From Sabellastarte sp. h YS-2021 (lineage: Eukaryota; Annelida; Polychaeta; Sabellida; Sabellidae), in the NCBI GenBank assembly GCA_964017235.1, contig OZ024935.1, positions 88,007,052 to 88,071,051 on the forward strand: 64,000 nucleotides of DNA, in the 5' to 3' direction. Position numbers and translations under genes: made by a program. Shown here piece by piece: positions 3,635-60,786 of this stretch; within the stretch, counting starts at the first letter, position 1; the number at the start of each line of letters is the position of its first letter. Under the pieces are notes generated by a model. It had not been told where the DNA came from and searched no databases. It worked only from the letters and a program-made list of their open reading frames with translations.

Positions 3635-4387
3635 TGAAGGAGCAAAGTTATTCTGACATAAATACTCCATAAAAGCTAATAATACATGGACGTTTACCTG
3701 AGATGGCAGCAGTCCAGCCACCACCAGAAATGCCATGAAGTCAGAGAACATTCTACTATAAGCTCTTCGTATAGCTGGCCTGAAGGATTGCAGTAACCGA
3801 TCAAATGCACTGGTGGTCAGCTGGACTGCTGCAGAAGGCATATCTACAATCACAAATCATGTTTTAACTTGGTCAAATCGATACGAGTGTGAATCTATAT
3901 AAAATTAGGGGCATGTTGTTGGAGTGATTGCCACGAGGCAGTATCAAACTTAAACCTAGATAAAAGGTCAGCCACAACATTTTTTTTCCTGGTATGTGCT
4001 CAATATGAATGGAAATATTGAATATGGCAGATATAAGCCATATATTATGGGCACATGATCCAAGTATAGGGTCTTTGGTCCTACCAGAGGTCAGAACGTC
4101 AACCACTGCCATATTGTCACATTTAATTTGTAATTTTTTACATGACCATTGAGTGGCCCAGATCTTGAGAGCTACCACTATGTTAAGCATCTCCAAATGT
4201 ACAATGGAGTAGTTATTAAATTTTTTTGGTATAGGAAGGGCATAACACTGATTATCAAAAATACCCCCAAAGCCTGTCAAACAAGCATCTAAATACAGCT
4301 CAGCTTGAACTGGTTTTACGTCATAATAGACCACGCCATTGAATTGTTTAAAAAAAGTGGCAAACCACTTTAAAACCCTAAAGAATT
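3635..4387 (-). pseudogene. DIRS RNase H and start of tyrosine recombinase
   Basis: The upstream part (about 4387-3960) is an RNase H domain: LYLDACLTGFGG carries the first Asp, HLEMLNIVVAL the Glu, and KCDNMAVVDVL the second Asp, followed by the conserved IPGK. The downstream part (3853-3635) is the helical N-terminal domain of the recombinase (RRAYSRMFSDFMAFL), which resumes at 465 after the LINE. A stop or frame change separates the two near 3860. The RNase H start was cut from its reverse transcriptase by the second LINE at 4401-6676. Confidence 0.85.
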
Positions 4388-4400
4388 CTACAGTTAACCT

Positions 4401-6676
4401 TTTTTTTCTTTTTTTTGAAACATATAAATTACATAATACAACACACACTGTAACAACTACACACAAGACAATGTACACCTAGAAGAAGTGACTACTAAAA
4501 ACATGAAGCAATACAAAATATCAATATTTGAATGATTATATCATGTTAAACATTCATACACAACAGAATTAGCCAGAAAAAATTGGCATAAAATCTCCCC
4601 ATATCTTACTAAAATTACCTTCCTTAAATTCCAGTTTGGCAGTATACTCCTGTTCCAAATATATTCTTTTCAAGAAAGTACAAAAACTAGGATAATTTAA
4701 AATATGATCTGATTTTGAAACTCGAAAAATATATAACTTAGCTGCGAGGTAGATGGTATTAAGTGGAATAACATTGATCTTTGTTAAGAGGTTTCCTAAT
4801 ATAATAGTAGAGGGGTTTATTGCTAGATCAATTCCAAGTATGAGTTGCAAGTGAGTTTTTAGGTCTGACCAAACTATTTTTACATCTTTGCACTGTACAA
4901 AAAGGTGTAATATCGTTTCTGAGTATTGTTTACAAAAACTGCATTTGCCATCATCATGGCTTTTAATTTTAAACAGTAATTCTTTTGTACCTAATATCCT
5001 GTACAGCACTCTGTACTGCATCCAAATTAAGTCATTGTCTTTTATAGTCTTAAAACACACTCTAAATATTTGTTTCCACATATCTTTATCTATGGTAATA
5101 CCTAGGGTTTCTTCCCAGAATGAATAATAAGTGGTATCATCTTTAGTGTTCTGATTGAACAATATAGCATAAAAGTCTTTACTTCCTTTATTTGATTTAC
5201 AAATGATTTTTATTTGATTTGGGATAGTAGGTTTTTTATGTTCTGTAGAAGCATTATTTTGTTTATTCAAGTAAGTTTTAACACAGGTAATGACTCTGTG
5301 GTATTCTAAAAAAATGGTTCTAATGTGATATACCATTTTAAAATCGTTTTGAGATATATAATTTCCATTTTCATAGATCATACCAGCAATTGATATAATA
5401 CCTTTATTGTACCAATATGGTGAGAAATGTTGTGTCTTAGATACCACTGGATTATTCCAAAGAGGTTCTGAAAGAGGATCATTAATACTTTTAATCGGGA
5501 TGTTATTGTTATGTATATTGTTATGTTATAAACTTACTCCAACAATACAGAGTTTCAGACCAGAATTTATTTGTTGTTTTTCTAGCCATATTTAAACTAT
5601 AATTTGACCCAAGTGAAATAACTTTATTAATTGATCCTAGATAAATGCTGGCTATATTAGCCCATGGTGTTTCAAAATTGTAGTGTAACCTTCGTATCCA
5701 AGTTATCTTAATAGCAGGTATAAATGTTCCAAGGTCTATCATATTTAATCCACCATCAAAGTAATGTTTTGATAAGGTTTTCCTTTTTACCTTATCCGGT
5801 TTTCCACTCCAGATAAATTTATAGAACTTTGTTTCTAATTGTTTCAATATATCCTTTCCCGGTGAAGGCAATGACAGGAACAAGTGATTCAACTTGGACA
5901 GGGCCAAACTTTAAATCACGGTTATTTTACCTATTGGAGTTAAGTATTGGTGGCTCCAACGATTTAAGAGTTTTTCAAGATTATTTATTGCAGGAAGATA
6001 GTTTAACTCAATCATGTTTGATAAATCTACAGAAAATTTAATGCCTAGAAGAGTAAAATCACTAGCACCCCATATCAAATCTTTACCCACATTAAGTTTA
6101 TCTTTAGAATGACATTTTTTACCTATCCAAACTAGCTTGGTTTTATCCATATTTACCTTTAGACCAGACATATTACCAAATACCTATAAGACATTGAGAG
6201 CGGCTAATAAGTACTCTTGCTTCCATTTAAAATTAAGGTTGTATCATCGGCAAACTGTGATATCTAAATTCATTGCCATTCACTGAAATACCTTTCAAAT
6301 TTTTATCATTTACAATTAAAAGAAACATTTTTTGTGCACACAGGTTAAACAGGTAAGCTGATATTGGATCACCCTGTCTACAACCACATTCTATATTGAA
6401 AAATTCAGATAATGTGCCATATTGAAGAATTGCAGCAGAAACATTAGTGTTTAAGACTCTGATCCATTTACAAAAACTATCCTTAAAACCAAATATAGTT
6501 AGAATAGAGTAAAGAAATTTCCATGAAACAGAATCGAATGCTTTTTGAAAATCGATCAACATGAGCAAACCTGGTATTTGATTAGAGTTTGCATAGTGAA
6601 TTATATTATATATTAGACGAGTATTTTCTCCAATAAAGCGGTTGCTCATAAATCGTGATTGGGTATTTGAAGGGTA
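4401..6676 (-). mobile_element. Second L1/Tx1-like LINE, 5'-truncated, antisense
   Basis: It is inserted in the DIRS between reverse transcriptase and RNase H. The 13-bp target duplication ctacagttaacct is exact (4388-4400 and 6677-6689), and the poly(A) tail is read as T-runs at 4401-4418. On the - strand it encodes an LIDFQKAFDSV block (about 6560), CRQGDPISAYLF (about 6370), FADD (about 6250) and a CxxC...HxxxxC knuckle (about 4955-4885). Frameshifts near 6260 and 5520 and an in-frame stop at 5911-5913 disable it. It is related to, but not a close copy of, the LINE at 479-3621. Confidence 0.9.
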
Positions 6677-6689
6677 CTACAGTTAACCT

Positions 6690-7700
6690 AGTGGAGGATT
6701 TACCTTCCATTGACCTAAGGAACTGGAGCATACGGTTTAGGAATGTTCTGGCTGGTCGGACACACTTTGACACATGTAAGAGAGATCCCAACAACGATTG
6801 TACCTCCCCTTTTGAACAATATATTTTATTTTGCCATTGGGCACACATCTGAATGATGTTTTCTAATTTTTCAGGGGAAACAGACATGGTTCTAGTCTCA
6901 GTGTCGATTAATATGCCTAGACACACCATAGAAGTAGTAGGAGATACTAGCTTCTTGATATTCAATGTCAAACCCTACTACTCAAGGAGATTGACTAATA
7001 ATTGAAAAGCAGGGTGAATTTTTGAGGGGGTGCCACAGTATATTATATCATCCACATGAATTGAAGAGATCAGGAAAACCATGTTTCCTCATGATGAATC
7101 TGATACTATCTGTCACTTTTTCAAAGAAAATTGAGCCATGTCTGTACCCAAATGGTACCGATTGATCGATATAATAGGAATCCAGCTTCAAACCTAACAA
7201 ATTTATATCACCTGGGTCAACTTTAAGTTGGCAAAAGGCCCGACTAATATCAACTTTACACAATAAAGATCCAGGTCCCAATTCAATAATTCTTTTAACA
7301 ATATCATCAACAGATGGGTAATTAAGAACAAAATCTGACCCTAAATATCTATCTTTTTGCACTCCAGCTCAAATCGACAATAGTACGCCTGGTGTCAGAG
7401 TCAGGTTTGTCCCTTGTCATAAAAGGTGAGATGTGAAGTGTCATGGGCTTATGTTCAAATGGTCCCAATATGACCCCATGTTTGAGCTCTTCTTGAATAT
7501 AAGTTTGAACATGAGAAGAAAACTGTTTAGCTGAAGCATGATTTTCTTCAGTAGAGATAAGATCAGTATTGGTGTCGAAATCGAGAAGGAACCCGAATTC
7601 CAGTAGGTCTAGCAACTGAGTATCCCAGTAATCCCTCAAGTGATATTTCCAACTATCTATATTAAAATTTGAAACCACTGGAACCCGAGCACCCAAAAAA
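6690..7700 (-). pseudogene. DIRS reverse transcriptase
   Basis: The N-terminal block SNFNIDSWKYHLRDYWD (about 7680) and TRRTIVDLSW (about 7380) are followed by YLGSDFVLNYPSVDDIV, VDISRAFCQLKVDPGD and PFGYRHGSIFFEKV. The catalytic box reads HVDD (about 7055) in a shifted frame, then GILIDTETRTMSV and LLGSLLHVSKCVRPAR. There is a deletion of a few codons with frameshift near 7360 and another frameshift near 7060. The order and spelling match DIRS rather than LTR-type reverse transcriptases. Confidence 0.88.
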
Positions 7701-8489
7701 TTTGGGCAACCAAAGCATTTGACAAAATTATGTAACCCTTAGGGGCCACAAATGGGTTGATTTTTTGTCTCTGGGCCTTCATACTTTAGCAAATTGCTTA
7801 GGGGTATAACCCCAAAAGATTCACCCATTTGATTTTTACACGCTACATAATCAGCACAATTTTTTGCTTGCATAATAATACCTGGGTCAACTCTGTTCTT
7901 TAACAATGCTTTGTCGAATTTGTCACAATCTTGCAAATTTTTATTATGAGACAACCTCACAGTTTGCCCAGTATCGCCAGGAGCAGTGTCCACTGCCTGG
8001 ATTTCACATTCTAAGATATCAATGTAATCTAAGAACAAATTGTCTTCCATCAAAGGTTCAAACCTGTTTTTACACAAGAGAACATTGTCGCTTGGACAGT
8101 TATTAGTGGTTTTACAAGGTCTAGCTTTCTGACTAGGAGTATGATGTGGAGTAATATGAGACAGCTTAACATCCTGCTGACCTGGTTTGCTTGCAACTTG
8201 AGTACCCACCAGAGGTGTAGCTTGCCCATGGCCTTTCTGGCCCAAGTTAGCCCTAACCACATCAGCAAAAGACTTGCCAGCAACAACAGGCTTATAACTG
8301 TTGCTGACGTTGAACCACTTAATCCACTTCCTTCTAGAAGCTTGACATTCAGTAACTACAGTTTTCCTACAAAAAGAACTGTTAAAAACATGCCTATCAA
8401 CAAACTTTTGATTTTAACAATAATTTACATCATTTTCCTGGACACAATCAGGCTGCCATGTAGCCTTACCAACCATGCCCAAAGTTATT
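7700..8489 (-). pseudogene. DIRS second ORF / gag C-terminal region
   Basis: An open stretch at 8260-7739 encodes a Cys-containing, poorly conserved protein (blocks VVRANLGQKGHGQ, EFNRFEPLMED-like, LLKNRVDPGIIMQAKNCADY). Upstream to 8489 the frame continues through KWFNVSNSYKPVVAGKSF with one in-frame stop near 8415. It runs into the reverse transcriptase at about 7700. I recognise it only by position in the DIRS; no enzymatic motif is visible. Confidence 0.6.
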
Positions 8490-17199: not shown

Positions 17200-18406
17200 T
17201 TTATTTTAAAATGGCTGTGTGTACGAGGCAAAGACACAGACTTTGAACAACTCCCTGTTGAAGATTTATGCCAAAATCTATGACAGTCCTACGAGGAAGT
17301 TAGCACAACAGATGGAAAAGAATATTCCAAATAATCTTTGGTTAGAATTCTTGCTGGCATCAACTACCACTTGCAAAATCCCCCTCATAACAGAATCCTA
17401 AATGTCATCAAGGATAGGGAATTCCAGCCTGCAAAAAAGGTTCTGTCAGGAAAGATTAAAACCAACAGAAGACATGCATTTCACAAGATACACCACAAAG
17501 AAGTTATTCCTCTGGGAGACATACAACAGCTCTATTCCTCTGGGGCCGTATTCACGAAAGGTCTTAGCCAAGTCTTAAGTTGGCTATATTTTTATACAAA
17601 AGTTAAGCCTAAGACTTGGCTAAGACCTTTTGTGAATACGGTCCCTGGAGTATTTAGCCACTCAAACCCAGGATATTTACAGTAAAATGTGTTTTTTGAA
17701 ATTTGTCTCCACTTAGGACATTGAGGGTGGGAAGGCTGACATGCCTTGAAGAAGGATTCATTTCAGTTTTGTAGATGATTCAAAGAAGAATTGTGAATAT
17801 GTGACCATTGCTGTGTCACTAAAAAACCATGGAATGAATTCTAGTACAATAGAAGAAAAATACCAACGCATGTGTGCAGCCCCAGGACATGATGATTGCC
17901 CAGTGAAATTGCTAAAGCTCTATCTCAGCAAATTCAGTAGAAAAGAGGAAAGCTTTCTTCAAACACCACACAAAGTTTACAAACTCGATGATAATGCATG
18001 GTATCTTGGCAGAATGGGGATCAACACAATTGAATATCTCATGAAAAAGATCCCAATAAAAGCCAAGCTCTCCAAGATATATACCAATCATTGTATCTGA
18101 GCAACAACATGCACTGTCTTGTCTCATTCCAATTTTTAACACTCCAACATCATAGCAGTTACATGGCATAAGGACTCAAGAAGCCTTTTGCCATACATGA
18201 TAAGTGTTTCCAATGAAATAAGAAAGGCAATGAGCATCACACTGTATGAATATGGAAGGGAGCCTTCAAATGAAGGAAAAGAAAATTGCCATTTTAAAAT
18301 GAGTAGCACAGGGCAAACAATGTCTACTGAGATTGGCATGAAGATATCTCAGTCAAATAATATTTCTTGTGGTCAATTCAACATACACTATAATTTTTCA
18401 AAATAA
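17200..18406 (+). pseudogene. Crypton-type tyrosine recombinase relic (DUF3504-like)
   Basis: Blocks match the recombinase of Cryptons and their domesticated relatives (KIAA1958/ZMYM-like). The N-terminal region is LVRILAGINYHLQ and NVIKDREFQPAKKVLSGKIK. A middle region around LYSSG/VFS is split by a MITE. The C-terminal part has MNSSTIEEKYQRMCAAPG, CPVKLLKLYLSK and YTNHCIRAT, which holds the HxxR catalytic motif (H-C-I-R at about 18090). Frameshifts near 17340 and several stops (17690-17790, 18100-18180) disable it. It lies upstream of the ankyrin gene on the same strand, but nothing links the two. Confidence 0.75.
17542..17645. mobile_element. Hairpin MITE inside the Crypton
   Basis: A near-perfect palindrome of about 104 bp has a left arm ggccgtattcacgaaaggtc (17543 on) and a right arm whose reverse complement matches it with few differences. 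The spacer is about 30 bp. A short ctgg/tgg duplication flanks it. Removing it rejoins the Crypton sequence LYSSG-VFS. Such ggccgtattcac hairpins are common in invertebrate genomes. Confidence 0.82.
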
Positions 18407-24852: not shown

Positions 24853-27488
24853 ATGGGGGTGTTCCACTGGAGCCAACCCTACAACTGACTCTATGATGCT
24901 AGGGTCAGTTACAAAAGTCGAGGACAAAAATTCAGAAAAAAAGGGTGGGGAAAATCTGGGTCAGTTTCACCTCCCCAACAGGATGTAATACATCCCGGCT
25001 TGTCTGGATTTAGAGGCCGACCTGACTTGGAGTTAGGATGTTTTCTACACAAGTAGATGGGAAACTAGCAGGGCAAGCCGTAAACCCCTAACAGACAAGC
25101 TGTATCAGGCCACAACAAGCTGTAGTGACAAACTGACTGGACTGGAGAAATGTACAGAATCACCACGACCAGACTTGTAGTCAGTATGGCCATTACAGTT
25201 TTTGATGAATTTCTGGGAGAAAGAGGATCAAGTATCGACCAATCAACAAATTTTAAACAAGCAAAAATAAGGGTTTGGTCCCATGAATGTGAATAAAGAC
25301 CAATAAAATGCATAGAAATCAAATAAATTGATTTATGCCTATTGGATGGATTGCTCCAATATTCCACATCCACTACTGTTCATTTCTTCTTCTGTGAGCA
25401 ATTGATGGTGTTTTGTACTTGGGAGTGCACCATTCCAGTATAGAAAACCCCATATCCTCAGTAGAGTGATTATTTCCAGTGAAATGTTGTGAAACAGAAG
25501 TCACTCTACTATCCTTTGGTTTGTTAACTGACAGTTTGTGCTCAGAGATTCATGCTCTGAACACTCTGCCTGTTTCACCTACATAGTATTTGTTGCATTT
25601 TATGCATGTTATTAAATATACTACATCACTTAATTCAAATGATATTTGTTTGGGGAGATCTTTAGTTGTATATTTGTCCCCACTAATTTTGCAAGTGATA
25701 TCATCAAGTTTTTCGATGAGGCAACAGTATGTGCATTTGCCCAATCTAGAACAGTGAATGGGTACTAATGTTTTCATCTCAAGTACCTTTGGTGAGTATT
25801 CAATGGAGGCTTTTGTAAGTAAGTCTCTAAGGTTCGGTAGTCTTTTGAAGCCAATGATGGGATTATCTGGAAATGTTGGGACACAGTCTGTACTGTGTTC
25901 AATTATGTTCCAGTTGGCGTGAATAGAAACCTTTATATTGGGCGTTGTGGGCTGAACTCGGTGGTCATAACTGGGGTTGAATTAGATTCATTTTCTTTGA
26001 CTTCAGGTAAGTCAAGTTGACTATACTTGCTTGCTCTAAGCATATATTTTTCAACTACTTAAGCAGGTAACCGTTTTCATGTAATGTTCAATCACTTTGA
26101 TGCCATTTTCAATGAAGTCCTTATTTTTAAACATATTCTTCTGATTCCCAGGAATTGTCCATAGGGACCCTTTTCATGATAATGGCTATGGTTGGCTGAT
26201 TCATACTGAAGGTACAGATTTGTGCTTGTGGGTTTTTTATGTAGTGTTGTGTATATGGTGTTGTCTGTGTCAATTTTTACTGTGGTGTCCAGGAAATTGA
26301 CAGAAGTGTAACTGACCTCTGAAGTGAATATAATTGTTTTATGGATATCATTGTGATAACTAATGAAACATTCTAGTTCATTCTTGCCATGTGTCCAAAT
26401 CAAATCATGAAACATGAGCTTTAGTCTCAAATCTATCCATAAAGAGGTTGGCATAATTTCGTGCTACTGCTGTGCCCATGGCCGTGCCTCCTACCTAAGT
26501 AATCTTATCCATTAAAGGTGAAATTCATACTATGTAGTACCAATTCTAAAAGTCTGAGGATAAAGGGAGTGATAGGATCTTTGGTTCTATCATTCCTTAG
26601 TTGGGCTGCCAACATGAGCTAGTAATCCTTCCCTATTAGGTATGTTGGTGTACCGGGAAGATATATCCAAGGTGACTAATAATAAACCTGGAGGAAATTT
26701 GCCAATATTCTTTAGTCTACTGATAAAGTGCTGAGTATCCCTTACATAAGAGGCTGTTTTTGGTACATAGTCTCTGATGTGTGCATCCACAAATTTGCTA
26801 ATGTTGCATGTTAAGTGTCCAATAGAACTGCATATTGGTCTACCTGGAACATATTTTTGTGTATTTTAGGGAGAAGATAAAATCTTCCAGCTTTAGGGTT
26901 GCTTATCTTTAAGAAATCAATATTCTTCTCAGTGACAAGTTTAAGATTTTTCATTTCAGTTAATACCTGGCATATTTTCTTGGCTATGTCATGAGTTGGG
27001 TCTTGTCTGAGTTTGGTATAGAAGTTGGTATCACTTAATTGCCTGTATTATGCCCCTGTTCCACCAAAGGACTAAGGCCCGATCCTTAATCGTGGACAGT
27101 CGGTAAAAAAAAAGGTAAAATGGGCGGGAATACTGAATTGGTATCAAAGCCTGAGATTAAGTACTGATCGGCTTCAGGAAGCCTGAGGAGGCCCCAGGCA
27201 GCCCCAGACAGTCCCCGACTGGTCTGGGACTAAGAACCGATTAAGCCAGTTTTCTGGTCTCTTTCAACCACGATCCTGTCGTACACATACCGACTGGGTC
27301 CCAGGACACCTCAGGCCTCCTGGGACTAAGCCCCGATTAAATCCTGGCGTCCTCAGGCATCCTGAGGCCTCCTCAGTCTTCCCCAGACCATGATGGCCGA
27401 TTCATGTTTTGCAAAATAACTGGATTTTCTGGGTATATATATAAATTCCGTAATCTAATTATCATTACTTTTATGGGAACACAGTAGG

Positions 27489-28789
27489 ATGCCACCTTTT
27501 AATGGAAGACAGCTTCAGCAACAACTTACGGCTTTTTTAGTTTTTATTCAGTTACAAATAATGATGTATTTGCTATTTTTACGTCAACCACAGCAACCAC
27601 CACAAGCAGCAGCACCACCACCACCACCAGCCATACAGAGACCTAGAAGAAGGCACAATATGTGGGTCAGGCCATGGCTACTGCAGAGAGAGGAGAGGGG
27701 GGGCTACCACAACATTATGGCTGAACTGTATGCCACAGACATTCCAGGATTCACCAACTACATGAGGATGACCCCACAATTCTTTGAAATGATAAAGACC
27801 AGACTGGAACCACGTCTAGCCAGGCAGGCCACCAACTACAGAGCTCCAATCAGTGTTGGGGAAAAGTTAGCCCTCACCATCAGATATCTGGCCACTGGAG
27901 AGTCCTACACATCATTATCCTGTCAGTTCAGGGTTGGCAGATCCACCATTTCCAAGTTTCTACCAGAGGTCTGCAAGGCCATCCAGGATGAGTTCACCAG
28001 AGAGTACATCAGATGTCCTATTACTCCAGATGAGTGGAAAGAACTGGAAAGGGAATTCAGGATCAGGTGGAATGTTCCACATGCCCTGGGAGCCCTTGAT
28101 GGCAAGCATGTGGCCCTGAAGAAGCCCAAGAACTCTGGAGCCCTGTACCGGGTTCTTTTCCATAGTAATGTTGGCCTTGGTAGAGGGGCAGTACAAATTC
28201 AGATGGGTGGATGCTGGTACAGCTGGATCTTGCTCAGATGCCCAGATGTTTAATGCCTGTCAGCTGAAGAGGAGGATTGAGGATGGCAGGATAGGCTTCC
28301 CTGACCCAGCTCCTACGCAGGGTGGTAGAGATGGTTCCCTACTTCATTCTGGCAGATGATGCCTTTGCCCTGAAGACCTGGCTCATGAAACCCTATGGCA
28401 GAAGGATGTTAACCAGAGAGGAAAGAATTGTCAACTACAGAATATCAAGGGGCAGGAGAGTTGTTGAGAGTGCTTTTGGCATCCTGGTCTCAAGATTCAG
28501 AGTGATGTTGACTACTATTGAAGTACCCCCAGAAACAGTCAGGGATGTGGTCATGACCTGTGTGGTTCTGCACAACATACTGAGAAGCCAGTATCAAGGT
28601 CAACATGGTGGTCAAGAGCCTGGAGATGATGAAGATGATGATGTGCCTGGTGATTGTCGGCTGATTGGTGGTGCTGCTGGTGGTGGTCCAGACAGAAACC
28701 CTGCTAGAGAAGCCAAAAGACAGAGGGATTACCTCAAGGACTACTTCAATAATGAGGGAGCAGTGGCCTGGCAAGATGGCAGAATATAA
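27489..28789 (+). pseudogene. Harbinger 1 DDE transposase
   Basis: It starts at ATG 27489 with a Gln/Pro-rich leader, then a helical N-terminal domain (MTPQFFEMIKTRL) and a helix-turn-helix-like GESYTSLSCQFRVGRSTISKF. The DDE_4-type nuclease core follows: ALDGKHVALKKP holds Asp 1, WVDAGTAGSCSDAQMF Asp 2, and [11 protein letters not shown] and [11 protein letters not shown] the acidic residues at the end. Two frameshifts (near 28155, with loss of a few codons at YNYKG, and near 28320) break it. It ends at TAA 28787-28789 after an acidic tail. The stem-loop at 28807 begins 18 nt later. Confidence 0.9.
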
Positions 28790-28806
28790 CTCCTGCTGCA
28801 GTAACC

Positions 28807-28822
28807 AGTCCTTTTCAGGACT
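28807..28822 (+). promoter_or_regulatory. Histone-like 3' stem-loop after the transposase
   Basis: AGTCCT-TTTC-AGGACT forms a perfect 6-bp stem with a 4-nt UNUN loop, followed by ACCA. It starts 18 nt after the stop codon. The layout matches the metazoan replication-dependent histone mRNA 3' element except that the first pair is A-U instead of G-C. A cttcc-free purine element is not seen; ttccaaaaac follows 9 nt later. Confidence 0.75.
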
Positions 28823-28879
28823 ACCAAATATTCCAAAAACAATTAATCAGCTATGCTTGTTCAAAATAACCCAAACATT

Positions 28880-29100
28880 ACCAAACATACTTCACGCCAC
28901 CAACAAACAGACAAACCCCATGGCCAACATAATTCACCCACCCAACAAACAGACAAACACAATGCCTGACAGAAGTCACGCCACCAACAAACAGACAAAC
29001 CCTATGGCCAACATAATTCACCCACCCAACAAACAGACAGAAATAAATGCTAGTCATCCAACTAACAAACAGACAAACCCAGTGCTAAACATATTTATAA
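28880..29100 (+). repeat. Tandem repeat of about 84 bp, 2.5 copies
   Basis: The words caacaaacagacaaac and ggccaacataattcaccc recur; cgccaccaacaaacagacaa starts at about 28894 and again at about 28979. It lies just past the stem-loop between the convergent genes. No function is apparent. Confidence 0.75.
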
Positions 29101-29729
29101 AAAGAAACACACAAAGCCAAACATAGCTTCCTAAATGGAATAAATATTGCATATATTTTGAAAGATACATCCTAATTTTACTTACATTTGGTTTTTTGGG
29201 GGGAAAAATATTTGAAACAGAAATGTTTTCCTGGAAATCTTAAAATTAAAATCTTTTACTCCACTTCACAAATATTTAGGAAATATAACCACTAAACTGG
29301 TTTTCTTTACAAAGATGGGGGTTATGTTTGTAAAATAGTTTGTCAGTTCTTTGGTTTGGGTTCTGTTTGGTATTTGGTTTGTGTGTTTGAGGGTTGGTGG
29401 TTAGGTTTGGTATTGGGTTTGTGTATTTGTGGGTTGGTAAGTATGTTATAATGCCTTTTAACTCTAGGGATGATGTAGGTGTTGGACTTTTTTATTAAAG
29501 ATTTTAACCAATCCCATGGATTTTAAGCTAAAAATGGGCTGATTATTGGCCATATTGGGAGTTCATTTATTCTAATTTTTTTTCTATGTGGCCTTTTGTG
29601 GTTATGTGTGGTACCATGGGTTATTTGTTTCATGTTTGGGGTGGTGTAGGTGTTTGTACTGAACTGTTATGTTTGGGAGGGGAATTGGAATTACTTGCAG
29701 CTAAATAATTGTTTTTGGAATATTTGGGT

Positions 29730-29745
29730 GGCCCTGAAAAGGGCC
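29730..29745 (-). promoter_or_regulatory. Canonical histone-type 3' stem-loop after the MADF gene
   Basis: On the - strand GGCCCT-TTTC-AGGGCC is followed by ACCCA. This equals the metazoan histone consensus: G-C in the first two pairs, U-A closing pair, UUUC loop, ACCCA tail. It begins 32 nt after the MADF stop codon (29778-29780). Confidence 0.85.
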
Positions 29746-29777
29746 TGGCAGGTCAAAGACCTGCCCTGACTGGATGG

Positions 29778-30886
29778 CTACTGAGGAGGTTGCTGCTGTT
29801 GAGGCGGTGCTGTAGTGGTGATAACAAAGAGTTGCGGCTGCTGCTGCTGCTGCTGAGGCTGCTCAATGATCTGTGTAGATGTCAGATCTGGTAGCTGGCT
29901 TAGTATTCCACTTAAGTTGTGTCTACTGCCCTCGTCCTGTACTGTTAGAACTGATGGAGGGTTGCCAAAGCTAAGGGGGCTTGGTGTGTAGTAGATGTAA
30001 CTGCTGCTAGTTGCTGCTTGGGTGGAAGTAGATGCCTGTTGAGTGTTAGCAGTATGCCGACCCTCTGGGACTCCATGGTAATAGTGGCTGATTTTCTGGC
30101 TAGTGGTTGACATCTACAGTTGCTCTTAATGCTTTCAATATCTCTAAAAATTCTGCCCTTAAGATCCTCAAATTCCTCTTGGGTCATCTTTTCAGCCTCT
30201 GATGCCACGTAGTCAAAGAAGGGCTGCCTGTCTGACTTCTGCTGCAGGAAACCTGAGATCAATGTCCCCATCTGGTCAAAGTGCTCGAGTATCTTGGAGT
30301 CTGTTGAAACTGGTGTAGATGTGAACATAGGTTGACTCCTACTCTCTCTGATGACACTGGACTCAAGGTGTTCTGTATCAGTAGTAGACCCACGAGATTC
30401 TTCCTGCTTGTTGGTATTTGGACTGGCCTCGAACCCTGAACTTCTGCTGGCCCCCTTTCATCTGATATGGGTCTTAAGGAAACCCATCTGCTGGTAGACC
30501 CAGGACTGTCTCTTGGTCATCTCCCTTGGGGCTTGGCCAGATTGTAGTTTTGACAGCTTGCCATAACGCGTTCGCTGAGATTCGAACCATCTTCTGACAT
30601 CAAAGGGCTGGAGCTTCAGTTCTGCAGAGATTTATGCCCAGAGAGCCTCCTTCTTCTGTCTGTCGTGGAAACGTGCATGCTCCTTGTCATAGAGCTCTGG
30701 ATGCTCCTTCACAAACTCCACAATTGCAGTTTCTTGGCTGTCAGTGGAAGTTGAACAGACCCTGGTTCTCTTGGCTACCGAGTGACTCTCTAAATCCTCC
30801 TCACACCTCTCGTCTTCCTCGCAAGCTTCCTCAGTAAGTTCCAATCGCTCCTCAGTCTCTTGTGTACCATCCTCTGTACCCTCCAC
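29778..30886 (-). pseudogene. Harbinger 1 MADF-type DNA-binding protein
   Basis: An acidic N-terminus is followed by a MADF/Myb-like domain: AIVEFVKEHPELYDKEHARF, KKEALWA and, past an in-frame stop at 30632-30634, FDVRRWFESQRTRYGKLSK. The central helices (DQMGTLISGFLQQKSDRQPFFDYVASEAEKM) are shared with the Harbinger 3 protein. The C-terminus is poly-Gln. A second in-frame stop (near 30465) and a frameshift near 30110 disable it. In this superfamily the MADF/Myb protein binds the ends and assists the transposase. Confidence 0.82.
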
Positions 30887-33800
30887 TTTCCTTCTCCCTC
30901 TCCTCTTGCCTCTTATCCATCTTCTTCTTTCCTCTCTTCCCTCCTTTCTCTTTCCTCATAACTCCAGTCAATAGCAAAAAAAAAGTAAAAAAGTAAAATG
31001 TCTCCTAACTGTAAAATTTGCCTTAAGCTCAAGTATTATATGATATTTAAAAAAATGAAAACCCCTGCAAAACAGAGACACAGTAGGTCTCAGTAGGCAA
31101 CCAGTCAGTAACAACGAGAATGTGTGTGCAGTCGCTTATATAGTCCCAGACCCCCTCATTGCCTTGTTTTAATTTCCGACGCGTGGAAAACAGTCAGCTC
31201 TTAGTCCCAGGCCTCCTGGGGCATCCTCAGACTGTCGCGGACTAAATTTGTGTTGTCCCAGGCGGCCTGAGGACGCCGGCTTTTTGGATCGGTTAGGGTC
31301 GGCTTCTCTTAGTCGGGGCTTAGTCCCAGACCCAGATTTCTTAGTCCCAGGACACCTGAGACGGTCTGAGGCTTCTCGGGACTAATGAAACCAAATCACT
31401 TACACACGCATGAAACTTCAAAGATCTGTTATGAGTCGGGGACTGCCAAACAGGCTTCCTGGGACTAAGCTACGGAGGCCTGGGACTAAGGGTCGCAGGA
31501 GGCCTGGGACAACATAGGACTGTGTAAATTTGGGTCTGGGGAGGCCTGAGGAAGCCTGGGACTGGACATTTTGTTGTCAGTGGGAAATGAGAATCAGTTT
31601 GAGTCGTGAAAAATATCAAACGTGTGTGATTTCTCTCATGGCCACAACCGACAACTACCGACCCTTACAGGACGTCTGGGACTAAGCAAATATTTGAAAC
31701 CGACTCCCAAATACCCTTAATTGGGAAGCTTAGTCGTGTGGTGGACCACCCACATAATCTTCTTTCAAGTAATCTGTGGTGTTCATGATTTCTATTCCAG
31801 ATCCTTTATCTGCCTTTTTAATCACAATTTCTGTGTTGACCCTAAGTTCCTTCGGTCCCTTCCATTGCTATTTGGTTAGGTTATTGTACGAGTTGTGGTT
31901 TACCTTACATTCCAATAGGTTCATCTTGAATGCTCTTTTAAAGGTGTTAAGGGTTTATTGGGTGGGTTTGGCCTCCAAGAGGATTTGTTTTTAAATGACT
32001 TATGTATGTCATTGTAGTTGATTTTAGTGTCTTGTTCAGCATCTTCTGGCTTTGTATTTGCATTCATGAAGTCAATGATGCTTTGTGATATTTCTAGGTT
32101 GTTGCCATCTGGCTTTTAGTTGGGCCTGAAGAATTGAACTAATTCCAACTTAATGTGGAATTCTTTAAAGTCATTCCAGATCTGTCTGGCCTTTTTGGTG
32201 TGGGACAGGAAGTTAAGCCTTTTTCCAGGGCTGTAACCTAGTGTTCCTTGAGATCTACTTTAGAGATGTTAATGACATTATGACCTGTATAATTTTCAAA
32301 TTCAGTATAAGGGGGGAGAATACCAGGTGGTGTATTCAAGGCAGCTAATTCAATCTGTTCCTTTGATTGTGCCATGACTCTTAATGTGTATGTTGTGTAG
32401 GTACCTGAGGTCCAAATAAGAAATGGAATTGCACCTGTTTTACAATCCATTTTATTTTTGTGTACCAATGTGTATGTGATAAATATTCTTTATACTATCA
32501 AGGTGTATTTTGAGTATGAAAATAAGGATATAAAAGCTTAACTAAAAGATTGTAGAAGCAAAAATGAAACTTCAATTTAACAGTTTTTAGTCGGTTGACA
32601 AAACTCTGGAGCTGTTGTCCTTGGTTTGGTCTTCTATGTTTTGATGGGCCCAATTTCCTTTTTCTTTTTTTTGGGGGGGGAGGGGGTGTTTAGGTGTTGG
32701 TTGTGTTTTTGGTGGCTGATACTGTCTCTTGGTTTTGAGTTCTAGTATAGGCGCCATCCCAATATCTCTTTTCTTTAAAGAGTCCTTAAGTATTTGGGTG
32801 ACCTTTATAAAATATACAATAAAATGCTTTTATATAATGAACACAGTATCATGCACTCATCTTAAGTGCCAAATACACTCTGGTTCCACATAAACTCAGT
32901 GCTTCATTATATCCTGAACACTCTTTGTATAGTCCACACACATCATAACTTGAAATTGTAATTGAAATGTAATTCCAACATTGGCCAACAAGTCCACAGT
33001 TAAGGTCACACAGAACAGGACTATTAATCATATTTTGGCAACAGTGGACAACACATCTTCACCACCAGGTCAGTAATTTGACCCCTAAAAGGTCACAGAG
33101 GTCATACTACCTAAATTATATGTAACCGGTTACACATCACCTCAAAAAATTATGAAAAATATTTTTGAGATCTTAAACACCCTAGTAACCACTTACTCAC
33201 CAAAAATGGTAAAAGGTGCAATTCACCGCTTAGCACTGCACTGGTGCAATAAAACTGGTGCAATTGCATTTTTAAAAAGTACTTCAGTGGGGGTCTTTGC
33301 CATATTCACCAGCCTCTGATGAGAAAGTTCAAGCTTATGTAACTTTTAAAACACAATGCAAGGCATTAATATATTGTTTAAGGCACAACAATACACTTAC
33401 CTGTACAGAGTGATTACTACAACACTTTTCTTTTATTTACAAAGCTAAAACAAGGTCAAGGCTGAATCTTTAAATCACATCTCTGTTGAAATCGGCTAAA
33501 CATTTGATAAAGTTTCTAAATAAAACAGGTTTCTTGATTATTTACTGCATACATGTGGACTATTTGTATCTGTTACCTTCCAAATTATGATTACTTGCAC
33601 TGTTTTTGTCATTCTTAGCATATTTTTGTTCATATTTTTACCTTACATCATGCTGGAAATGGGCTGCAAATGAACTCTTCTTAAGTGACAAAAGACAAGC
33701 CGGTTTCATGCTAGGATAAGACTGGAAGTGATGAGGACCAGACTGGAAGTGATAAGACAATACTGAAAGTGATTAGGACAAGATGGGAAGTGACTAGGAC

Positions 33801-34327: not shown

Positions 34328-35440
34328 ATGATTGGACAACAGAAAAGGACACATCTGAACCCAGCACCACCACCTGCCTTACAACCACCACCACAGCCAC
34401 AGCCCCAGCCAGACCCTTGGAGAAGAAGAAAGCCACCAAACTCCTGGGTTATGCCCTGGATTCTTCAAAGACAAGAAAAAGGATGCTACAGTAACCTCCT
34501 GACCGATCTCATCCATACTGACATCCCTGCACCAGAATTTTGTGAGGATGCCAGCCGCCTTTTTCATCTCATCAAAGAATGCATACACCACCACATCAAG
34601 AAGTCAGTCACAAATTTCAGGAAGCCATCAGAAGTTTAACTGGCAATAACGCTGAGACACCTTGCCACTGGAGGGAGCTACACCACCTGGCAGTATCACT
34701 GGCTGGTTGGCCGAACCACCATCTGCAAATTCATCCCCCAGGTCTGCAGAGCCATCCTTGCTCAATTCCAGGATGAATATTTGCTCTGCTCTATTTGCTC
34801 TGAGGAGTGGAAGAGGGTGGAGGAGAAGTTCAGAACCAGATGAAATGTTCCCCATGCTATAGGAGCAATAGACAGGAAGCATATCGCCATGACGAAGCTC
34901 AGGAAAACAGGCAGTGACTACTACAACTGCAAGGGCTTCTTTTCCCTGCTTCTCCTGGCCCTGGTAGATGGAGAATACAGATTCATGTGGATAAATTGTG
35001 GGTCAAGTGGTTCTTGCTCAGATACACCGATTTTCAGTAGAAGTGATTTGAGGGAGAAGATCGAGGATGGCAGCCTGGGGCTTCCAGCACCACTGGGGGG
35101 AAGAACTGTTACCTGCTGGGTGATGACGCCTTTGTTTGATGCCATGGATGGTGAAACCCTACAGCAGAAAACAACTTGTAAAAAGAATAGCCAACTACAG
35201 GATCCCCGGTGTCAGGAGGGTGGTGGAAAACACATTCAAGATCTTAGTGAGCATGTTCCGGGTACTACTTGGCATCATGAAGCAAAGGCCAAGGGTTGTG
35301 AGAGACATTGTGTTTACATGTGTGGTGTTACAGAACATGCTGAGGACACACCAGGGTGGAGCAGACAGGGCACCAACCCCAGGAAATGATGGAGCAGCCC
35401 TACAAAATGTACAGATGGTGTATGTGCCCAATGAGAACTA
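34328..35440 (+). pseudogene. Harbinger 2 DDE transposase
   Basis: It starts at ATG 34328 with a Pro/Gln-rich leader and SWVMPWILQRQEKGCYSNLL. After 34637 the frame is broken repeatedly. Recognisable core pieces are GAIDRKHIAM (Asp 1), GFFSLLLLALVDGEYRFMW, INCGSSGSCSDTPIF (Asp 2 position reads Asn), RIANYRIPGVRRVVENTFKIL and VRDIVFTCVVLQNMLR. It is more decayed than Harbinger 1 and 3. Confidence 0.82.
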
Positions 35441-35541
35441 CTGAAAAAGTACTTCAGTTACATGGGGGCACTTGCTGGGCAGGAGGACAGGATATGAGAT
35501 TGTCACCCAACAACACTGGGGGCAGAAGCTGACACCTATCA

Positions 35542-35579
35542 GGTCCTTTTCAGAACTACTGTCACTCCTTTTCAGGACT
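35542..35579 (+). promoter_or_regulatory. Two imperfect histone-like stem-loops
   Basis: GGTCCT-TTTC-AGAACT (35542-35557) and ACTCCT-TTTC-AGGACT (35564-35579) each have one mismatch in a 6-bp stem and keep the UUUC loop, with ACT after each. They sit behind the transposase relic. A ttccaagaac element follows the second at 35590. Confidence 0.55.
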
Positions 35580-41959: not shown

Positions 41960-42093
41960 TTGTGCTGACCAGTAGCAGCACACGACCTCTCCTCCTATCA
42001 TTACACAGCAGCAAGAGCCAACAAAGGAACCACAACAGCAGCCAACACAGCAGCCACAGCAGCAGCAGTAGACTTTTACTGCAACTATGTAAT

Positions 42094-42139
42094 GGTCCTT
42101 CTCAGGGCCACTGCAATATTAAAGGTCCTTCTGAGGACC
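42094..42139 (+). promoter_or_regulatory. Two histone-like stem-loops after a MADF relic
   Basis: GGTCCT-TCTC-AGGGCC (42094-42109, one G-U pair) and GGTCCT-TCTG-AGGACC (42124-42139, fully paired), the latter followed by ACCCA. Both keep the UNUN loop and the G-C second pair. They begin 23 and 53 nt after the poly-Gln stop. Confidence 0.75.
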
Positions 42140-42610
42140 ACCCAAATATCTCTAAAAAAATAAGCTACTACTTGTTTAAAAACCCAACTACCAAAACATT
42201 ACACCGTAAAAACAAATATAAAAGCTTCATACAAGCACACAAATGTGAGTAAATGACTCGGGGAGTGATGGGGTGAGTGGTTGGCTATGTGATTGAGGGA
42301 ATGAGTGAGACAGTAAGTGGTTGACTTAGTGGATTTAGGACATGTCTTCTTGCAAAGATTGTAAAGAAGTTTAAGGTTGTGGTGATAATGCTAAACATTT
42401 TTTTCTTTGGGGCCTAAAATGGCTAGGTTAAACTTTGTGAAACATTGTACATTGGTATTGGGATTTTTTCTTTGGTAATTTGCTTGTATAGGTTAGGGTA
42501 ATCTCAATTTTTGGTGAGTGTGAATGAAAAACTTCGTTGGTGAAGGGTACTGTTATTTTGGTTTGTTGAAAATTTGTTGGAAATTAGTTAATTTCTAGGA
42601 CAAATAGGGT

Positions 42611-42626
42611 AGTCCTGAAAAAGACT
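42611..42626 (-). promoter_or_regulatory. Histone-like stem-loop on the opposite strand
   Basis: Read on the - strand it is AGTCTT-TTTC-AGGACT followed by ACCC, with one G-U pair. It corresponds in stem sequence to the transposase stem-loops at 28807 and 48850, as expected if this is the transposase side of the remnant. Confidence 0.65.
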
Positions 42627-42640
42627 GATAAATGCAAGCT

Positions 42641-43178: not shown

Positions 43179-44790
43179 ACAGAGCCCTGGAAGGGGCATA
43201 GAACTGTTTTCCTTGCATTTTTTTATCTCGTTAGAAACAAGATAGCAAGTCATTCCCACAAGATAGGAAGTCGTTCTCACAAGTTAGTAAGTCATTACCA
43301 CAAGATACAAAGTCGTTCCCACAAGTTAGTAAGTCGTTACCACAAGATACTAAGTCGTTCCCACAAGTTATTAAGTCATTACTACAAGATACTAAGTTGT
43401 TCCCACAAGTTAACAAGTCATTACCACAAGATAGAAAGTCATTCCCACAAGTTAGCAAGTTGTTTCCACAAGTTAGCAAGTCGTTACCACAAGTTAGCAA
43501 AATCATTCCCACAAGATACTAACACATTCCCACAAGTTAGCAAAGTCATTCCCACAAGATAGGAAGTCATTCCCACAAGATAGGAAGTCGTTCCCACAAG
43601 TTAGAAAGTCATTACCACAAGATACTAACTCGTTCCCACAAGTTAGCAAAGTCGTTACCACAAGATACTAACTCGTTCCCACAAGTTAGCAAAGTCATTA
43701 CCACAAGGTACTACCTCGTTCCCACAAGTTAGCAAAATCGTTATCACAAGATACTAACTTGTTCCCACAAGTTAGCAAAGTCATTACCACAAGATACTAA
43801 CTCGTTCCCACAACTGAGTAAAGTTGTTACCACAAGATACTAAGTTGTTCCCACAAGATAACAAGTCGTTCCCACAAGATAGCCAGTCATTACCACAAGA
43901 TATGAAGTCATTCCCACAAGTTTTACTAAGTCATGCTTTGATGCCAGTGTACAGGCAATTTCTTTGTCTATGATACCTAACTTATATCGAGGTCACCCAT
44001 CTACTAGCATACCATTCAAGTTTACATATCCCTGTAGGCCTCCAGAGCTCGCACGTTTCCTGATATTTTACATGTCAAACTTTTATTTTATTAATTTTAA
44101 TGGTTATTCCTCTAAGTTACCTAATTAGTGACCTTCAGAGGTCATCTACTTATTGCTACAGGTATACTGCAATACTGTCTTTTAGAGGTTTAATACTAAT
44201 TGTGTTACAGTGTCTAAGGGGAGACCAAGGTAATGGGTATAAAGAAGGGGTTGAGAATGATAAGACTATGCAATTTGCAGCACAGCAAACACTAGATTTG
44301 CTGCATCCAGGTACATAGCTTGTATGAGAATCCAGTGGAGATACTGCAAGGTATACTGTGCCAAAAAGCACCCAGTCCAATGTAACATGCTGAAATATCC
44401 AAGGAAAGTGCCATAAAACAGGCATTTTGCTATCTTGTGGGAACGACTTGCTATCTTGTGGGAACGACTTTCTAACTTGTGGGAACGACTTGCTATCTTG
44501 TGGGAACGACTTTCTAACTTGTGGGAACGACTTTCTAACTTGTGGGAACAACTTGCTATCTTGTGGAAACAACTTTCTAACTTGTGGGAACAACTTTCTA
44601 ACTTGTGGGAACGACTTGGTATCTTGTGGGAACGACTTGCTAACTTGTGGGAATGACTTTCTAACTTGTGGTAATGAGTTGTTAACTTGTGGTAATGAGT
44701 TGCTAACTCGTGGCCACCACTTCTTATCTCATGGGAACGAGATAAAAAAATGCCAAGAAAACAGTTCTATGTCCCTTCCTGGGCTACGTA
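43179..44790. mobile_element. Foldback element with inverted 21-bp minisatellites, copy 1
   Basis: Terminal repeats of about 55 bp (acagagccctggaagggg... at 43179 and the complement ...gggctacgta to 44790) are followed inward by arrays of a 21-bp unit based on gtcgttcccacaagttag. The arrays are inverted relative to each other (43235-43925 and 44430-44740). The middle (43926-44429) is non-coding. Possible target duplication agtttct/agtttta. The same family occurs at 58216-60396. No transposase is present. Confidence 0.82.
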
Positions 44791-47599: not shown

Positions 47600-48816
47600 G
47601 CACCTGCCCAGCCAGAACCATGACAACCACAGCCATGCAGAAGGTAGAGGAAGCCACAGAATCCATGGGTTACACCCTGGCCACTGCAGAGGGAGGAAAG
47701 GGGATGCTACAGAACACTCTTGGACAAGCGAATCACAACTGACATACCAGGCTACAGGAATTTCACAAGGGCGATACCAGCCTTCTTTGATTTGATAGAG
47801 GAAAGAATTACCCCCGCCCCCTCCCCCCCACCTCAGGAAGTCAGAAACAAACTTCAGGAAGCCATTACAAGTGGGACTGAAACTAGCTGTTACATTGAGA
47901 CATTTATCCACAGGAGAAAGCTACACTTCACTGCAGTACCGCTGGAGAGTTGGAGGAACCACCAGCTGTAAATTTGTACCCAAGGTCTGCAAAGCCACCT
48001 TACTTGAATTTCAGAAAGAATATTTGACTTGTCCAACAGAGCCTGAAGACTGGAAGTCAATAGAAGAAAAGTTTAGAAACAGATGGAATGTCCCCCATGC
48101 AGTTGGTGCACTAGATGGCAAACACATAGCTATTAGGAAACCATGGAAGTCAGGCAGTGAATATTTCAACTACAAGGGCTACTTCTCCCTGGTACTGTTA
48201 GCTTTGGTCGACGCTGAATACAAATTTCTGTTGGTCAATGTGGGGGCCAGTGGTTCATCATCTGATGATCAAATCCTCAACCGTAGCAAGCTGAGTTGAG
48301 AATGGCACCTTGGGACAACCACCACCCAAATCACTGGGACCAGGAGGGCCAGATCGGCCAGATCTACACTACTTCCTGTTGGGGGACGACGCCTTTGTCC
48401 CCATGCCTTGGTTGGTCAAGCCATACAGCAGAAGACAACTGACCAGGGAGGAGCGAATAGCCAACTACAGAATCTCAAGGGGCAGGAGGGTGGTGGAGAA
48501 TGCCTTTGACATATTAGCGAGCAGATTCAGGGTACTGCTGACGACCGTGGAGCAAAGGCCAAAGGTGGTGAGAGACATTGTGTTAACATGTGTGATGTTA
48601 CATAACATGCTGAGAAGCCATTAGGGGGGAGCCGAGAGACCACCAACTCTGGCAGATGACATACAACCACCACAGAATGACCAGGGGGAGCAGGGACAAG
48701 ATGAAAATGTCAGAAATCCATCGGGGGAGGCAAAACATCAAAGAAACTTACTCAAAGAATATTTCAACAACTTTGGCGCACTGGCTGGGCAGGAGGACAG
48801 AATTTATGAAGACTGA
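47600..48816 (+). pseudogene. Harbinger 3 DDE transposase
   Basis: The order is RITTDIPGYRNFTRAIPAFF, then GLKLAVTLRHLSTGESYTSL with RWRVGGTTSCKFVPKVC, GALDGKHIAIRKP (Asp 1), GYFSLVLLALVDAEYKF, VNVGASGSSSDDQI (Asn at the usual Asp 2, though SDDQ keeps acids), YFLLGDDAFVPMPWLVKPY and [16 protein letters not shown]. Frameshifts near 47860 and 48300 and a stop at 48622-48624 break it. In the final frame the C-terminal block LLKEYFNNFGALAGQEDR reaches TGA 48814-48816. The stem-loop at 48850 follows. Confidence 0.88.
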
Positions 48817-48849: not shown

Positions 48850-48865
48850 AGTCCTTTTGAGGACT
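48850..48865 (+). promoter_or_regulatory. Histone-like 3' stem-loop after Harbinger 3 transposase
   Basis: AGTCCT-TTTG-AGGACT is fully paired with a UNUN loop and is followed by ACCCA. It starts 34 nt past the TGA. The element ttccaagaac follows at 48875. Confidence 0.78.
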
Positions 48866-49678: not shown

Positions 49679-49694
49679 GGCCCTGAGAATTGCC
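49679..49694 (-). promoter_or_regulatory. Decayed histone-like stem-loop after Harbinger 3 MADF gene
   Basis: On the - strand GGCAAT-TCTC-AGGGCC is followed by GCCCA. Two of six stem pairs are mismatched while the loop and the 3' arm match the Harbinger 1 version. A downstream tccaaaaacaatta stretch is shared with Harbinger 1. Confidence 0.5.
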
Positions 49695-60396: not shown

Positions 60397-60786
60397 ACTT
60401 CATGAATGACATATATGGAAAAATATATCACAAGTATAGATGATAATATCATACAAAGCCATATATATTTAGTTTTTCACTTTTAATGTAGAGACTGAAG
60501 GGCGAGTATGCACATTGCTATTCTTTAAGCTTTAAACCTGGATTCTAACGTAATTTGTAATCCTCCTTTGACATGATATTCTCCTCTTGAAATGACGAAT
60601 TATTATGTGATTTCCTATCCCTGAGTAGGAATATTTTTCTGATGTATGACAACACTGTTTGTAAACTTACTGCCTTTATTGTCCACAGTGGTACTACATC
60701 AGTAGAATTATGTATTGCTTCGAATGAACAGTTGAAAAGCAAATATCATGCATTAAGGATAATATGTGTGTCAAATGTTATTTCAG

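Follow-up and report, generated by a model that had tools for sequence, protein, structure and literature searches.

Do the genes of a DNA transposon make their mRNAs by the route usually reserved for histones? The question arises from a stretch of 64,000 nucleotides (the window) of the sabellid annelid Sabellastarte sp. h YS-2021 (contig OZ024935.1, positions 88,007,052 to 88,071,051), which contains a PIF/Harbinger element, here copy 1, with a transposase gene and a second gene in convergent orientation, each followed shortly after its stop codon by a histone-type stem-loop (SL). We consider it probable that, in this PIF/Harbinger lineage, both convergent genes carry at their ends the 3' signal of the host's replication-dependent histone genes, with mRNAs that are likely made by the histone pathway without poly(A). 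An earlier note on this DNA had described the two hairpins; their letters, coordinates and distances from the stop codons proved accurate when rechecked in the window. Its reading of both ends as histone-type 3' elements, not chance, is borne out by a strict pattern compared with shuffled sequence, by a covariance model of the host's own histone ends and by copies chosen through their transposase.

Gene ends of Harbinger copy 1

Copy 1 is bounded by terminal inverted repeats, TGCCCCTGTTCCACCAAAGGACTAAG on the left and, in minus-strand reading, TGTGGGTGGTCCACCACACGACTAAG on the right (Table 1); such repeats are also present in the relatives of the window type that were examined (clade A, one of the three clades A to C defined below). 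PF13359 matches its transposase at 28295-28789 (E 6e-16), and the pieces of the transposase share 84-94% identity with the frame of the relative L047, in which the same domain is recognised at E 2e-32, as it is in L001 of clade B at E 7e-13. The 3-bp TWA target-site duplication of the superfamily is not clean in the five copies with both ends: L032 has TAA on both sides, and the window copy, L033, L043 and L049 have TTA on the left and TAA on the right. In the second gene of copy 1, the single piece tried (29945-30457) gave no Pfam match. PF10545 is above cut-off in the clade A second genes of L031, L039, L041, L042 (E 2e-11), L044 and L047, and below cut-off, weakly, in L045 of clade C; this MADF domain was not found in fragments of L008, L034 and L035 of clade C or of L001 and L009 of clade B. 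Because MADF is weak in clade C and absent from the clade B fragments, we use the neutral label second gene for all clades.

With the Rfam Histone3 model, the second-gene SL of copy 1 reaches 35.8 bits (E 1e-6) and is the sole SL in the window above the gathering score of 34. The host-histone covariance model, which is built from only seven aligned host 3' ends (H1, H2A, H2B, H3 and three H4) and also covers the downstream element, scores it at 59.1 bits (E 2.3e-11) and the transposase-end SL, a single hairpin without a tandem partner, at 43.9 bits (E 1.1e-7). The six best window matches to this model (59.1, 43.9, 38.7, 30.3, 29.5 and 26.5 bits) fall at five Harbinger gene ends and, in fourth place, at a probable Harbinger remnant; the seventh has E 0.32. 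A strict SL pattern finds five matches in the window, at 28807 (+) and 29745 (-) in copy 1, 48850 (+) in copy 3, and 42124 (+) and 42626 (-) in the probable remnant, compared with a mean of 0.03 and a maximum of 1 in 100 dinucleotide shuffles.

Two types of downstream element occur in the host, CAAAAACAATTA (H1/H3/H4) and CAAGAACTTTTA (H2A/H2B), and both are found in the transposons. In full, host H1 and H3 carry TTCCAAAAACAATTA, from which H4 differs by one letter, and H2A and H2B carry TTTCAAGAACTTTTA. Since copy 1 has the H1/H3 type at both genes and two further window copies, 2 and 3, have TTCCAAGAACTTTTA, near the host H2A/H2B type, at their transposase ends, the transposons carry both host types. 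We infer from these letters that the downstream element is the U7 site. The host also encodes SLBP, recognised by two adjoining PF15247 matches at G000:C6:90391325-90402289 that jointly span the profile and that we read as exons.

Table 1. Coordinates of the Harbinger features in the window, in order of position.
Feature	Position	Strand	Details
Harbinger copy 1, between its terminal inverted repeats	27051-31754	.	left-end letters recur exactly at the ends of other copies
Transposase gene (DDE_Tnp_4), copy 1	27489-28789	+	stop 28787-28789; frame broken
Histone-type SL, transposase end, copy 1	28807-28822	+	AGTCCT-TTTC-AGGACT, then ACCA; 17 nt between stop and SL
Downstream element TTCCAAAAACAATTA, transposase end, copy 1	28831-28845	+	same letters as host H1 and H3 genes
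Downstream element TTCCAAAAACAATTA, second-gene end, copy 1	29706-29720	-	same letters as host H1 and H3 genes
Histone-type SL, second-gene end, copy 1	29730-29745	-	GGCCCT-TTTC-AGGGCC, then ACCCA; 32 nt between stop and SL
Second gene (MADF, Myb/SANT-like), copy 1	29778-30886	-	stop 29780-29778; frames broken; convergent with transposase
Tandem decayed SLs, transposase end (35497), copy 2	35542-35557, 35564-35579	+	then TTCCAAGAACTTTTA; host-histone model 26.5 bits, E 0.0019
Tandem SLs, probable remnant (copy 4)	42094-42109, 42124-42139	+	3' of CAG-rich gene end
Facing-end SL, probable remnant (copy 4)	42611-42626	-	Rfam 18.2 bits, E 3.8, weak; fits strict pattern; nearest to clade C transposase ends
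SL, transposase end (48804), copy 3	48850-48865	+	AGTCCT-TTTG-AGGACT, then TTCCAAGAACTTTTA
Decayed SL, second-gene end, copy 3	49679-49694	-	two pairs lost; downstream element CCAAAAACAATTA intact; host-histone model 29.5 bits, E 0.00036

Harbinger copies across the genome

A Histone3 search of the 1.79 Gb assembly, from which 75 candidates were scored, all above the gathering score, separates into 32 matches in a tandem H1 array (1932-bp period), five at core histone genes and 38 at neither; L012 is the only array unit whose H1 gene was read, and the other array matches were assigned by period and equal score. All but one of the 38 adjoin a frame resembling the Harbinger second gene (tblastn E <= 1e-5, self-matches excluded). 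The sole exception is L059 (34.6 bits), upstream of which neither a histone gene nor a transposon gene can be recognised. The top match of the 75, L001 at 43.6 bits, is itself a Harbinger in which a PF13359 transposase faces the SL. The H1 array, of 1932-bp units at G000:C4:31445721-31509289, lies apart from the core histone genes on C2. In the core cluster L050, a single Rfam match accompanies each of five histone frames, and a sixth, which is a second H3 (7369-8103), has no SL behind it.

By nucleotide similarity, 28 of these loci and copy 1 fall into three clades: A (the window type), B (L001) and C (L008/L034/L035/L045). Between clades, blastn around the second-gene end yields alignments that overlap the SL in 92 of 112 cases; of the remaining 20, the majority fall at the transposase-end SL, 0.3-1.1 kb further along, the exceptions being L035/L040 (247 nt) and L035/L049 (66 nt). 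For 46 of the 146 between-clade pairs there is no blastn alignment at all. Both the grouping and these alignments used copies chosen by their hairpin and are biased in that respect, so the comparison was repeated with copies chosen by transposase. Within the transposase side of L035, a 652-bp stretch (3925-4576) lies between Harbinger-like ends of both types and is perhaps a nested non-autonomous copy.

Choosing copies by their transposase provides a fair test because the hairpin plays no role in the choice. The samples were drawn from the 150 best-scored candidates of each clade (of 12,743 in A, 11,282 in C and 9,874 in B): each fourth row to row 78 in clade A (20 loci of 1251 nt), each seventh row to row 135 in clade C (20 loci), and 14 loci out of 20 chosen in clade B. 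With the host-histone model, every clade A locus (20/20) has the transposase-end SL and 17/20 have the second-gene SL (not L064, L066 and L074; that of L061 is cut at the edge), and these 37 matches stand in 25 kb with no others at E <= 1. Clade C has the transposase-end SL in 18/20 loci and the second-gene SL in 10/20, with a further weak one in L098; L083 has a stray match (E 0.41), the SL of L084 is interrupted, and L088 shows no transposase end. At clade B second genes, the SL is present in five of 14 loci and weak in L111 (18.7 bits). The signal is thus present at second genes in all three clades and at transposase ends in A and C only. In the interior of the same copies, a stricter hand-made scan of the sense strand finds no SL in 27,800 nt.

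An open frame of at least 430 amino acids, with no stop within the match, is present in 31 of the 150 scored clade A transposase matches; the transposase gene is thus intronless across that length, like histone genes. So many open transposase frames would fit a recent family.

The prevailing stems in clades A and C are AGTCCT/AGGACT at the transposase end and GGCCCT/AGGGCC at the second gene, compared with GGCTCT/AGAGCC in the host. In an alignment of 35 rows (five host, 30 transposase-chosen with a model match), 95.7% of cells are paired and three of the six pairs are altered on both sides; pairing falls to 9-58% when the partner is shifted by 1-3 columns. A set of 23 hairpin-chosen rows is 100% paired, again with three of six pairs altered on both sides. 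Shuffling the 3' letters often matches the number of doubly changed pairs (358/500 trials for the 35 rows and 301/500 for the 23) and in 500 trials for each set never matches the observed paired or doubly changed cells.

Sequence identity between clades A and C was computed over 360 pairs from the 38 transposase-chosen loci with a model match (L084 and L088 were dropped). At the transposase end it is 93.6% across the SL and ACC (47% when shuffled) and 71% in the downstream element (53%), and beyond that element it is near shuffle level, at 57% (53%) and 51% (49%). With flanks so close to the shuffle level, the identity of the signal needs either selection or repeated exchange, and the gene-specific stems favour inheritance over exchange. 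These comparisons establish the anatomy of the signal and its position past the stop codons; they also establish that its stems are compensatory and that it is present at nearly all sampled clade A and C transposase ends despite diverged neighbours.

Many transposase ends carry more than one hairpin. By the stricter scan, the 20 clade A ends have two hairpins in 13 cases, three in one and one in six, and some single-hairpin ends have a decayed neighbour hairpin. In clade A tandems, ACC and the downstream element follow the last hairpin only, and the spacer is AATAACC. Two partly decayed hairpins are found in L002, L003, L036, window copy 2 and the remnant.

Other Harbinger copies and features of the window

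The transposases of copy 2 (34679-35497) and copy 3 (47922-48804) share 47-58% protein identity, by piece, with that of L047, as judged by tblastn only. At the second-gene end of copy 2, no SL was found. The transposase-end SL of copy 3 scores 27.1 bits with Rfam, under the gathering score, and 38.7 bits (E 2e-6) with the host-histone model; the downstream element at its second gene is of the H1/H3 type.

A fourth stretch, at about 41960-42640, is probably a Harbinger remnant, for which the evidence consists only of two facing SLs and a CAG-rich gene end. Its second plus-strand SL reaches 33.7 bits with Rfam, just under the gathering score, and 30.3 bits with the host-histone model, and its minus-strand SL aligns by blastn with transposase-end stretches at 75-82% over 45-73 nt, SL included. 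Against Harbinger loci, the remnant aligns at 71-72% over 84-101 nt; with the SL spots masked, blastn finds no match to these loci.

Elsewhere in the window, arrays of a short TTCCCACAAGTTAGYAAGTCG-like repeat were seen by eye in opposite orientations at 43200-43940, 44420-44720 and 58300-60400, some of them inside long open frames adjoining ankyrin-like and kinase-like genes. Positions 17535-17652 are palindromic and foldback-like in appearance, with several matches to microRNA families under their gathering scores.

Interpretation and relation to known systems

In the histone pathway, SLBP sits on the hairpin, the U7 small nuclear ribonucleoprotein (snRNP) base-pairs to the downstream element, and the RNA is cut a few bases past the hairpin without being polyadenylated (PMC1924863). 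The Harbinger ends share with the replication-dependent histone 3' end (RF00032) the 6-bp stem, the UUUC loop, the U-A closing pair, the G-C second pair and ACC(C)A, as well as an SL shortly past the stop, a downstream element of the H1/H3 type and an intronless transposase frame. Unlike histone genes, the Harbinger genes encode a transposase and its partner, their stems differ by compensatory pairs, and a transposase end can hold up to three tandem SLs, compared with one per Rfam-matched host histone gene.

Transferred to the transposon, host SLBP would bind the hairpin in the RNA, the complex that cleaves histone transcripts (U7 snRNP at the downstream element, and CPSF73) would cut a few bases 3' of it, and the mRNA would end without poly(A). 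Synthesis of transposase and partner would thereby be tied to S phase and to dividing cells, of the germline or early embryo. The likely benefit is expression in S phase, when a move out of DNA already replicated and into DNA ahead of the fork can raise the copy number of a cut-and-paste element; rapid termination between the facing genes may be a further advantage. Where hairpins are tandem, an mRNA cleaved past the last one would keep several SLBP sites. Going further, we lean towards the view that this is an autonomous transposon lineage on the histone mRNA cycle, in which the mRNAs of both genes would be tail-less, SLBP-bound and limited to S phase, and tandem hairpins would tune expression.

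Several results weigh against a histone-type route for these mRNAs. The transposase-end SL of copy 1 scores 31.0 bits (E 6e-5) with Rfam Histone3, just under the gathering score. Fewer ends pass the stricter hand-made scan (transposase 20/20 in A and 16/20 in C; second gene 11/20 and 5/20), and sampling among the 150 best-scored candidates under-represents older copies. Across the 20 clade A copies, the first AWTAAA lies 195-548 nt past the transposase stop, so that a poly(A) fallback further downstream is possible. In clade B, the host-histone model finds the SL at none of 14 transposase ends, and in four of the 14 (L101, L104, L106 and L108) AWTAAA lies about 30 nt or less from the transposase C-terminus; Harbingers can therefore do without the signal at the transposase gene. 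For U7 small nuclear RNA (snRNA), RF00066 has no match in the genome, nor has the family control. A pattern combining the complement of the downstream element with a U7-type Sm site gave 27 matches, compared with 20 for the reversed control, and none of the 20 inspected was a convincing snRNA (the seven left uninspected comprise five that share one repeated sequence type and two that contain long gaps).

Because the same method finds no SL at clade B transposase ends, that clade also serves as an internal control. The SL can persist there at second genes and not at the transposase, giving mixed 3'-end types in one element. The expectation in the earlier note that model matches would cluster at the gene ends of other copies thus holds for both genes in clades A and C and for the second gene in clade B, and fails at the clade B transposase end; its interpretation as a whole is partly supported.

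Among the alternatives, passive capture, in which an ancestral element took up host histone untranslated sequence and the signal now has no role, survives best, and we regard it as improbable. The downstream element nearly equals that of the host histone genes, and uptake of host sequence has been proposed for the Tm1-HH elements of nematodes (PMC3169594). A passive sequence should, however, have drifted like its flanks, yet 92 of the 112 between-clade alignments, from hairpin-chosen copies, overlap the SL, stem substitutions are paired, and clades A and C agree in the stem that prevails at each gene. Somewhat less probable still is that the hairpins mainly stop convergent transcription early, avoiding double-stranded RNA and small-RNA silencing, with cell-cycle coupling as a by-product. 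The convergent genes, whose SLs face each other at about 0.35-1.1 kb, would suit such a role, which is also compatible with a histone-type 3' end; clade B, however, is convergent with an SL at one gene only. We give little credence to the idea that these are DNA elements or RNA hairpins unrelated to SLBP, such as transposase binding sites or ordinary terminators: short inverted repeats do lie within the transposon, but they are strand-asymmetric, in that on the sense strand the SL comes just past the stop and is followed 3' by ACC and the downstream element, and they are recognised by the model trained on host histones. Chance, for which the shortness of the pattern might speak, is refuted by five matches compared with a mean of 0.03 per shuffled window, by 20/20 and 18/20 transposase-chosen ends and by none in 27,800 nt of interior.

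PIF/Harbinger genes would be expected to have ordinary poly(A) ends. The elements described here share with that superfamily the PF13359 transposase, the PF10545 second gene (clade A) and terminal inverted repeats, and differ from its usual members in their histone-type gene ends, although the clade B transposase gene may show an ordinary end. The statement in the earlier note that no DNA transposon has been described with this signal is not exact. According to PMC3169594, the Tm1-HH elements, Mutator/Foldback elements of Meloidogyne (root-knot nematodes), carry a histone hairpin and conserved sequence 3' of it; the eight in M. incognita are deemed non-autonomous, the three drawn in detail are without obvious coding, and transposase-coding Tm1 is a class apart from Tm1-HH. 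Both systems are DNA transposons with a histone hairpin and conserved 3' sequence, and in ours the signal stands where protein genes end, in a family whose open transposase frames are numerous.

Open papers yielded no coding transposon genes, and no Harbingers, with histone-type ends (subscription journals and preprints lay outside the search), and a term search of PMC9710019, on PIF/Harbinger co-domestication in insects, finds no use of 'stem-loop'. The retention, despite divergence, of histone-type ends on coding genes in a transposon family that has open transposase frames appears to be new. Neither the exact pattern of SL and downstream element nor relatives of the transposase were found in viral contigs, and phage records held no match to the transposase. 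Homologous proteins number 1665 at E <= 0.001, and among the 120 listed eight read through the SL in frame; they come without DNA or species and so permit no inference on other species.

Histone SLs are usually held to be exclusive to replication-dependent histone genes, and Rfam Histone3 matches in animal genomes need caution, given that 37 of the 75 scored here adjoin Harbinger-like second genes. Poly(A)-selected RNA-seq may miss such elements. The transposons also offer natural signal variants for work on SLBP and U7, and their tandems of two to three SLs (L061-L080, L002, L003, L036 and the window) form a natural series for work on SLBP dosage. A large, partly intact transposon family with the full signal would show that the histone pathway can be hijacked. 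If our reading of these gene ends as functional histone-type signals is true, these would be the first known mobile elements with protein genes on the histone 3'-end pathway, and the signal would provide a direct mechanism coupling transposition to DNA replication.

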